Below are positions 19,891-22,204 of a DNA stretch of 48,256 bases, one piece after another; within the stretch, counting starts at the first letter, position 1, and each line of letters starts with the position of its first letter. The notes under the pieces are model-generated. The model worked only from the letters and a program-made list of their open reading frames with translations, was not told the DNA's origin and did not search any database. The stretch covers positions 1 to 48,256 of the forward strand of contig QCPB01000008.1 of the NCBI GenBank assembly GCA_003209795.1. The letters run 5' to 3'. The stretch is from Prochlorococcus sp. AG-436-C05 (lineage in GTDB: Bacteria; Cyanobacteriota; Cyanobacteriia; PCC-6307; Cyanobiaceae). The position numbers and the translations under genes were made by a program.

Positions 19891-20700
19891 ATGATTAAAA
19901 ATACTAAAAAAACACCAAAAAATATCATTTTATCTCTTGAGAATGTTTTCATTAGTTATGGAGCTTTTGAAGCCGTAAGAAATGTTTTTTGTAATTTCAA
20001 AAAAGGAGATATAACTTCTCTCATCGGACCTTCTGGTTGCGGCAAATCGACTGTTCTTAGAGCTTTAAATAGAATGAACGATTTAATCCCTAATTGTTCA
20101 CTGAAAGGGACTGTAATGTTTAATGGAACTAATATTTATGACACACGAGTAGATCCAGTTGAAGTAAGAAGAAGAATCGGAATGGTTTTTCAACAACCTA
20201 ATCCTTTTCCTAAATCTATATATGAAAACATTGCATTTGGGGCAAGAATCAATGGATTCACTGGAGATATGGATTATTTAGTCGAAAGTTCGCTAAAAAA
20301 AGCTGCTTTATGGGATGAGTGCAAGGATAAACTTAATGATAGTGGTTATTCGTTGTCTGGAGGACAACAGCAGAGATTATGTATTGCGAGAACGATTGCA
20401 ATTGAGCCTGAAATAATTTTAATGGATGAACCTTGTTCAGCCTTGGATCCAATCTCCACTTTGAAAATAGAGGAAACTATGCATGAACTTAAGAAGAATT
20501 ACACAATAATAATCGTTACTCATAATATGCAACAGGCTTTAAGAGTTAGTGATATGACTGCATTTTTCAATGCAATAGAACATAAAGAGGGAGATGGCGG
20601 TAAAGTTGGCTATCTTGCAGAATTTAATTCGACAAAGAAAATTTTTAATTCTCCCAAGGAAAAAACTACTCAGGAATATATATCTGGTAAATTTGGCTAA
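19891..20700 (+). CDS. pstB: Phosphate ABC transporter ATPase PstB
   Basis: 269 aa ABC ATPase. Walker A is [10 protein letters not shown]-loop [20 protein letters not shown] (a PstB hallmark), signature [13 protein letters not shown], Walker [14 protein letters not shown], and the switch His is in [10 protein letters not shown]. It drives phosphate import through PstC and PstA. No binding protein (PstS) or phoU follows; the next plus-strand content is a tiny gene. In Prochlorococcus pstS often lies elsewhere. Confidence 0.97.
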
Positions 20701-20750
20701 GCATCTTTTTTTGTAATTCTTCAAAAAAAAATTAACTGCAGGAGAGCAAA

Positions 20751-20788
20751 GGTAGACAAAAGGTATAAATACCTATATAGTAATTATA
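20751..20788 (+). promoter_or_regulatory. 38-bp element, copy 1 (inverted twin at 21841-21878)
   Basis: GGTAGACAAAAGGTATAAAT begins the element; it continues ACCTATATAGTAATTATA. The reverse complement of 21841-21878 agrees at 36 of 38 bases. The core AGGTATAAATACCT is itself a dyad with 6-base arms. It sits 16 bases before the TTG of the peptide gene at 20805. The TATAAAT and TATATAGT parts could serve as -10 boxes, and the dyad could be a regulator site. What binds it is unknown. Confidence 0.6.
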
Positions 20789-20804
20789 AATTTTAGGTAT
20801 TGAT

Positions 20805-20894
20805 TTGAAAAAAATCCCCTTACTACCTTTCTTGATTTTCGCAGGTGCTATAATTACAACTGCCACAATAGGTCTACCAGTTTTTTCTTCATAA
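20805..20894 (+). CDS. 29-aa membrane peptide behind the 38-bp element
   Basis: TTG 20805-20807 to TAA 20892-20894: MKKIPLLPFLIFAGAIITTA then TIGLPVFSS. Two lysines followed by a hydrophobic span and small residues look like a signal peptide or one-helix protein. TTAGG lies about 8 bases upstream. The close spacing to the 38-bp element suggests the element drives it. No family recognised. Confidence 0.4.
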   Translation: MKKIPLLPFLIFAGAIITTATIGLPVFSS

Positions 20895-21089
20895 TCTTAA
20901 TGATTATTTGATTTAATGTAAAACAATGATTTTTAGAATAAAAAAGATTTAATTGGAAGTCCTAATAAAACAATAATAAATCAATATTTATTTGACTTTA
21001 TAAAAAATAGAGAGAATATTAATATGTGTGTGATTGAGAAATTTGCTTTTAAAACCACTTCTAGTGTGTTTTTTGAATTAAATTTTTTT

Positions 21090-21236
21090 ATGGATAAAAC
21101 TAAAGAACAGTTAGAAAAACTTAGAGAAGTCGCTGAAGCTTCTTTAACAAAGACAGATGAACTTCAGAAAGTGCTTGCACAAATTGAAGCTCTAATGTCC
21201 AGGGAAGAATCAAAAACACTATTAAAGAAAAAATAA
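21090..21236 (+). CDS. 48-aa coiled-coil protein
   Basis: A frame is open from ATG 21024, but residues before the inner ATG at 21090 look like random AT-rich translation. From 21090 the protein MDKTKEQLEKLREVAEASL and onward (LTKTDELQKVLAQIEALMSR, ESKTLLKKK) is a regular charged heptad helix. I therefore chose 21090. It is probably a small soluble coiled coil. Function unknown. Confidence 0.5.
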   Translation: MDKTKEQLEKLREVAEASLTKTDELQKVLAQIEALMSREESKTLLKKK

Positions 21237-21308
21237 AGACTTAATTACATATTTTTTTGTGCTTCTTATTACATCTTCTCAAGATAATCATTGTTATTAA
21301 TTAAATTA

Positions 21309-21380
21309 ACAGAACCCGTTCCAAAGTTTTCTGTTAGGTCTCTAGGTCTTACCTTCTTTATGTAAAAGACCTCTTTAATT
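21309..21380 (+). terminator. Paired hairpins, possible terminator or small RNA end
   Basis: ACAGAA 21309-21314 pairs with TTCTGT 21329-21334. AGGTCTT 21344-21350 pairs with AAGACCT 21366-21372, followed by CTTTAATTTGTTTT. It lies downstream of the coiled-coil gene ending at 21236. Both hairpins together could be the end of a transcript or a small RNA. Confidence 0.35.
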
Positions 21381-21423
21381 TGTTTTAGTTTATTTTTTTA
21401 TTTTATAAAGATATTATTTCAGA

Positions 21424-21729
21424 TTAGTTAAAAACCTTATTGACTTCCTTCTTGCAAATATTCACATCAAATGATTCAGTATTTACAATCTCAAGCCCTG
21501 TTGTTTCTGTAACTTTAACAGTAGCATTGCATTCATCCTGTTTAAGAGCCATATAGCTTGGTTTCTTATTCTTTAAATCTAATTCAATTTCTGTTTCCTC
21601 ATTATTCTTTTTATATTGTTCCATTACAAGTGTCAGAGCCTCTATCTCAACAGAAAAGTTATCATTGGCTTTTAAAACAAAAGGAGTAAAAAGTATTTGA
21701 AATAAAATAAAGGGTATTAATTTTTTCAT
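21424..21729 (-). CDS. Secreted 101-aa protein, unknown
   Basis: A signal peptide (MKKLIPFILFQILFTPFVLKA, cleavage likely near residue 21) is followed by a mature part of about 80 residues. This includes KKPSYMALKQDECNATVKV, TTGLEIVNTESFDVNICKKE and two cysteines able to form a disulfide. It is probably periplasmic. Copy 2 of the 38-bp element lies 112 bases upstream in the same orientation. No family recognised. Confidence 0.6.
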   Translation of the reverse strand: MKKLIPFILFQILFTPFVLKANDNFSVEIEALTLVMEQYKKNNEETEIELDLKNKKPSYMALKQDECNATVKVTETTGLEIVNTESFDVNICKKEVNKVFN

Positions 21730-21840
21730 TTCTACAATATATGTTTATTTTTTTTATAACGTAGATTTTCTGATATAGAAAGATTCATAGCATAGATTTG
21801 TTTATTCTTTTGACAAAGAGTTTAATATGATTTATTAAAA

Positions 21841-21878
21841 TATAATAACTATATAAGTATTTATACCTTTTGTCTACC
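21841..21878 (-). promoter_or_regulatory. 38-bp element, copy 2
   Basis: Reading the minus strand from 21878, the first 22 bases (GGTAGACAAAAGGTATAAAT, then AC) are identical to copy 1. After one C-to-T change and one A-to-T change the rest matches too. It points at the secreted-protein gene 21424-21729. Some similarity continues beyond the 38 bases (ATTATA, then T- and A-rich). Confidence 0.6.
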
Positions 21879-21916
21879 CTTGGAAGTAAATAGTTTCTAT
21901 TCCTTGTTTAGTTAAT

Positions 21917-22204
21917 TCAAGATTTACCTATAAGTCTATTTGGGAAATAACTTTGTTTTGTTTTGGGTTCAATTTTTTTTGATTTAGTCTTTGTTTTTAA
22001 ATTATTTTTGTTTATATCAATTATTTCTTGAGAAACGTTTTTTCCGTTTTCGAAATAACTTCTTACTCTTGCTGAATCTTCTTTATTTAATCGTTTAGTT
22101 GCTCCTTTTGCATTTATTCCAAGAGTCTTGCAAGCTAGCATAACTTTATTACTATCGATGTTAAGTTCCTTTGCTATAGCATAAATAGGAGTGTTTAAAG
22201 ACAT
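21917..22204 (-). CDS. Small IF-2 N-terminal-domain protein
   Basis: 95 aa. Residues 6-50 (PIYAIAKELNIDSNKVMLAC, KTLGINAKGATKRLNKED) match the IF2_N domain, a helical module found at the front of bacterial IF-2 with the pattern Y-x-L-A-K-E-L-x-x-x-x-K-x-x-x-x-x-L-G. A lysine-rich tail follows. There is no GTPase domain, so this is a free module that may bind RNA or the ribosome. The first ATG fits well. Neighbouring gene order gives no further hint. Confidence 0.7.
   Translation of the reverse strand: MSLNTPIYAIAKELNIDSNKVMLACKTLGINAKGATKRLNKEDSARVRSYFENGKNVSQEIIDINKNNLKTKTKSKKIEPKTKQSYFPNRLIGKS

Follow-up and report, generated by a model that had tools for sequence, protein, structure and literature searches.

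Why does one Prochlorococcus genome carry two nearly identical copies of a short element in inverted orientation, and what might the element do? The question was addressed for a stretch of 48,256 nt of Prochlorococcus sp. AG-436-C05 (contig QCPB01000008.1, positions 1 to 48,256), which is called the window throughout.

Two inverted copies of a promoter-like element

The original prediction had described a 38-base pair of sequences, and 20751-20788 and the reverse complement of 21841-21878 indeed agreed at 36 of 38 positions. Ungapped extension lengthened the pair to 42 nt: 20747-20788 and the reverse complement of 21841-21882 are identical at 39 of 42 positions (93%), and the inverted copies lie 1.05 kb apart. 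A related 20-mer is expected only 0.02 times in shuffled versions of the window. The genome-wide core search that had been proposed returned the two copies as the sole matches of the 20-mer core in the 1.14 Mb assembly, with up to three mismatches allowed. It was also correct that each copy is aimed at a small ORF. The features are:

19891-20700, plus strand: pstB, the upstream neighbour of copy 1
20747-20788, plus strand: element copy 1, promoter-like, with -35 TAGACA at 20753-20758, a 17-bp spacer at 20759-20775 and -10 TATAGT at 20776-20781
20761-20774, no strand: dyad AGGTATAAATACCT in the copy 1 spacer, a possible operator (genus core GTATAAATAC), from sequence and per-column conservation
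20805-20894, plus strand: gene for a predicted 29-aa single-span membrane protein, TTG start (MKKIPLLPFLIFAGAIITTATIGLPVFSS)
21424-21729, minus strand: gene for a 101-aa secreted-type protein downstream of copy 2, ATG at 21729, signal-peptide-like N terminus
21741-21762, minus strand: conserved proximal block ACGTTATAAAAAAAATAAACAT, probably the 101-aa gene's own promoter, present with or without copy 2
21841-21882, minus strand: element copy 2, inverted, private to the AG-436-C05 genome, with -35 TAGACA at 21876-21871 and -10 TATAGT at 21853-21848

Both copies contain hexamers of the sigma-70 type in front of a gene and within the 16-18 bp spacing range (TAGACA-17-TATAGT, 10/12), with the same spacing in copy 2 on the minus strand as in copy 1, and this arrangement is invariant across relatives. 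A scan for the -35/-10 consensus by itself did not exceed shuffled sequences, which yielded equally many promoter-like sites, and therefore the case for a promoter rests on conservation. The dyad had been thought to overlap the -10 sequence, but AGGTATAAATACCT lies within the 17-bp spacer between TAGACA and TATAGT of the best-fitting promoter. Folding of the copy 1 DNA revealed no special structure (z -0.9), and no copy of the element was found in a viral contig collection.

Elsewhere in the window, 6S RNA (RF00013, 6593-6777) and Yfr17 (RF02365, 13706-13962) were recognized above the Rfam gathering score.

Conservation of copy 1 across the genus

A 29-mer of the element was found, with at most three mismatches, in 208 of 266 genomes of the genus, and the reversed control gave 0 matches. 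Those relatives that bear a name are Prochlorococcus. Each carrier genome contains one element, with the exception of AG-436-C05, which has two. In every locus that was read, copy 1 is situated between pstB and the TTG-started 29-aa ORF, just upstream of the ORF, and the distance from the end of TATAGT to the TTG is fixed, mostly at 24 nt.

To avoid the bias of pattern-based fetching, 80 loci were retrieved by protein alone. In this set, which leans to one part of the genus because the loci are the best protein matches, the element was present within three mismatches in 80 of 80 loci and exact in 73. The mean pairwise difference in the 80 loci was 0.008 for the element, compared with 0.330 for fourfold sites of pstB and 0.321 for the 40 nt immediately upstream. 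Conservation reached 95% or more at 32 consecutive positions, and the spacer turned out to be as invariant as the hexamers. The dyad itself is short, and its ends vary without clear compensation. The proximal block of the 101-aa gene at the same locus has a conserved run of 19 nt; conserved promoters are thus not rare at this locus, though the run of copy 1 is longer. In a more diverged genome (G026), TGGACATACAGTATAAATACCTATATAGT is kept before the 29-aa gene.

Co-occurrence was scored in 66 genomes of the genus: the element and the 29-aa protein were both present in 60 and both absent from 6. The six also lack pstB and the 101-aa gene, so that the whole locus is missing, by loss or by an assembly gap, and they are not a test of the element alone.

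The 29-aa gene and its occurrence in a second genus

Variation of the 29-aa ORF is concentrated at third codon positions (gene diversity 0.254 versus 0.038 and 0.013), the frame is kept, and 86% of the codon differences are synonymous, compared with 26% expected. The ORF is under selection at the protein level. Its product has one hydrophobic span; the sequence is strongly conserved within the genus, and P, PF, F and TAT-GLP-F do not vary. Searches of Pfam, NCBIfam and PHROGs retrieved no family match, and a literature search found no paper that discusses the product and no mention of the element, supplementary files being outside its reach.

Strong matches to the 29-aa protein are confined to two genera. 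In the second genus, the ortholog starts with ATG and sits among hypothetical genes, not behind pstB. Its promoter region reads RGTATAAATACYTAGTATGGTATAATTACCTATA and contains a related core, and AGTAAAATTACTTATAAG stands before a paralog of the 29-aa gene. The first part of RGTATAAATACYTAGTATGGTATAATTACCTATA overlaps the 3′ end of the preceding ORF, and therefore may be kept for two reasons. Whole-genome scans in the second genus with RGTAWAAWTACYTATAAG yielded matches with at most one mismatch only at promoters of the ortholog or the paralog.

Searches for a regulon

The suggestion that the element serves a small regulon was not supported, as other genomes carry one copy each and relaxed searches remained at background. 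A relaxed 19-mer gave 83 matches in ten genomes, versus 80 for the reversed control. A pattern of -35 plus dyad found the known sites only, one per genome and two in AG-436-C05; a multi-gene operator was not recovered. As to the original promoter-operator claim, there is good support for reading copy 1 as a promoter that contains an operator-like dyad, given its genus-wide presence at a fixed distance from a coding ORF, but not for its sharing by a regulon. A supposed link to the pst genes came down to neighbourhood: the element lies downstream of pstB and is devoid of the CTTAACCT repeats that have been described for the Pho box (PMC1906773).

Two sites elsewhere were observed in passing. A promoter-like site, GTATAGAAACTTATATACT, is conserved in several genomes of the genus upstream of a cysteine-synthase-like gene (cysK; loci L123, L124 and L127 in G012, G019 and G000 contig 26) and resembles the element core at 16 of 19 positions. 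It is a weak lead towards a regulon, and the resemblance may be due to chance. A long, near-perfect intergenic palindrome was noted around GTATAAATACTTAGATGGT (locus L140, around position 493; G349 contig 1, about 728.4 kb).

Operator or plain promoter

An operator in the spacer appears most likely because the spacer varies no more than the hexamers do, its dyad core recurs in a second genus, and the unit followed the gene to a new neighbourhood and to a paralog. The most serious alternative is a plain strong promoter that has no dedicated regulator, in which the spacer would be kept for promoter strength and the dyad would be incidental. This would fit the outcome of the searches, which found neither a regulon nor a candidate regulator, and the presence of another promoter with a conserved run of 19 nt in the same locus. 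However, it would have to account for an invariant spacer within 32 conserved positions and for the core before both the ortholog and the paralog in another genus. We consider the plain promoter rather unlikely, but it deserves to be taken seriously.

Origin of copy 2

Copy 2 was not found in any other of the 266 genomes of the genus. The original prediction had named the absence of the two copies from close relatives that keep both genes as evidence against it, and copy 2 is absent there. In the nearest relatives, the 101-aa gene and the gene for an IF2_N-domain protein are retained on the two sides, with 75-100 nt of unrelated DNA at the site of copy 2. The 3′ flank WATTATA is common to copies 1 and 2 and missing in the relatives, which indicates that one copy was derived from the other inside the AG-436-C05 lineage; copy 1 sits at the ancestral position, which makes copy 2 the derived one. 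Judged from these flanks, copy 2 arose in this lineage by local duplication of copy 1 in inverted orientation. The 101-aa gene retains its own conserved block ACGTTATAAAAAAAATAAAC, and therefore a promoter in copy 2 would come in addition, from further upstream, and would give a leader of about 110 nt. It probably gives the 101-aa gene an extra putative promoter beyond the conserved proximal one.

An artefact of assembly or amplification could produce such a private copy, and the copy is known from one assembly, which is 72% complete and consists of 40 contigs; many of the relatives are single-cell genomes. But the copies differ at 3 of 42 sites, which argues against fresh amplification, and both sides of copy 2 are orthologous to the relatives, so that a chimera would need two switches. 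An artefact is accordingly improbable.

Even less credit can be given to the idea that the element forms the 5′ portion of a conserved gene for a small RNA or an RNA-peptide and is not a DNA signal. Prochlorococcus does have many small RNAs, some of them with short ORFs (PMC2518516). Against this stand the downstream variation, which falls on third codon positions, the lack of a match to any Rfam covariance model and thus to a known ncRNA family, and the finding of no terminator-like site. Furthermore, the ncRNA table of MED4 (PMC2518516) has no entry near 688.6 kb, the position of the element in the 1,657,990-base genome taken as MED4. An inverted pair 1.05 kb apart could also mark the ends of a mobile unit, as had been proposed, or of an invertible segment. 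For the genomes sampled this can be dismissed with near certainty, because relatives that have just one copy show the intervening genes in synteny and unchanged orientation, the stretch between the copies contains no recombinase gene, and copy 1 occurs alone throughout the genus.

Further observations were made on the genes around copy 2. In AG-436-C05 and its closest relatives, the gene for the 95-aa protein with a stand-alone IF2_N domain (window 21917-22204) adjoins the 101-aa gene, but it is about 7 kb away from that gene in many other genomes of the genus, which places a breakpoint close to copy 2. Most relatives have a conserved ORF, about 49 aa long (MDKTKEQLEKLREVAEASLTKTDELQKVLAQIEALMSREE..., window 21090-21236), between the genes for the 29-aa and 101-aa proteins; its start is extended upstream to 21024 by mechanical ORF calling. 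A single-sequence structure model of the 101-aa protein was poor. The alignment-based model (pLDDT 74) has one helix and four strands, and Foldseek searches with it gave no convincing match (best E 0.085 in the PDB and 0.0067 in BFVD).

Proposed explanation

Taken together, we think it probable that copy 1 is a promoter with an operator in its spacer and that copy 2 is a local inverted duplicate that adds a promoter to the 101-aa gene. Copy 1 would be the promoter of an overlooked gene of Prochlorococcus for a single-span membrane protein of 29 aa. A housekeeping-type sigma factor would direct RNA polymerase to TAGACA and TATAGT at their 17-bp spacing, with transcription beginning about 17 nt ahead of the TTG. 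The invariant spacer, which contains the dyad GTATAAATAC, would most likely be an operator for a putative regulator that binds between the hexamers. Copy 2 would have displaced the sequence that stood about 110 nt ahead of the convergent gene for the 101-aa secreted protein.

A more far-reaching version can be offered only tentatively. A Prochlorococcus-specific regulator might bind RGTA-N4-TACY between the -35 and -10 of one gene family, the promoter-operator and the 29-aa protein might have travelled as a unit (into different neighbourhoods in two genera, with a core of the same type at a paralog), and in one lineage a neighbour gene might have come under the same control via a 42-bp inverted duplication.

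Regulators are few in Prochlorococcus, and intergenic DNA is scarce. When a probable promoter of about 30 bp stays almost the same amid flanking sequence that diverges by a third, it singles out a gene for which control is important. The private copy 2 resembles a recent promoter duplication in a streamlined genome and is useful for asking whether new control links arise in this way. The parts are of known kinds throughout; the overlooked small gene and the possible regulator stand out, and the two copies have two histories, one old and nearly frozen, the other new and private.

Comparison with known systems

The element resembles sigma-70-type promoters with a spacer operator, in the geometry of the MerR family or of simple repressors, in that the hexamers are 17 bp apart and a dyad is centred between them. 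Spacers of MerR-type promoters are typically 19-20 bp. The element differs from these promoters in that its regulator is putative and that it is tied to one gene family. A dyad of GTA and TAC half sites is shared with the NtcA site, GTA-N8-TAC. However, GTATAAATAC has the form GTA-N4-TAC, with a gap of 4 and not 8, and occupies the spacer instead of being placed at the NtcA distance upstream of the -10; an NtcA site was thus rejected.

The SphR/PhoB Pho box of cyanobacteria is likewise found next to pst genes, and its published sites, upstream of pstS and pstC, consist of CTTAACCT-like repeats (PMC1906773). In contrast, the element follows pstB and does not precede a pst gene, and in a comparison with the published sites it lacked the tandem CTTAACCT-like 8-mers with 3-bp linkers, so that it was not accepted as an SphR site. 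The 29-aa protein, finally, equals TisB, a small protein mentioned in PMC2518516, in its length of 29 aa, and it shares one hydrophobic span with TisB-like small hydrophobic single-span proteins. It differs from these in that no sequence match to them was found and no conserved promoter for an antisense RNA was observed among the relatives, and in that the protein is strongly conserved throughout its genus.
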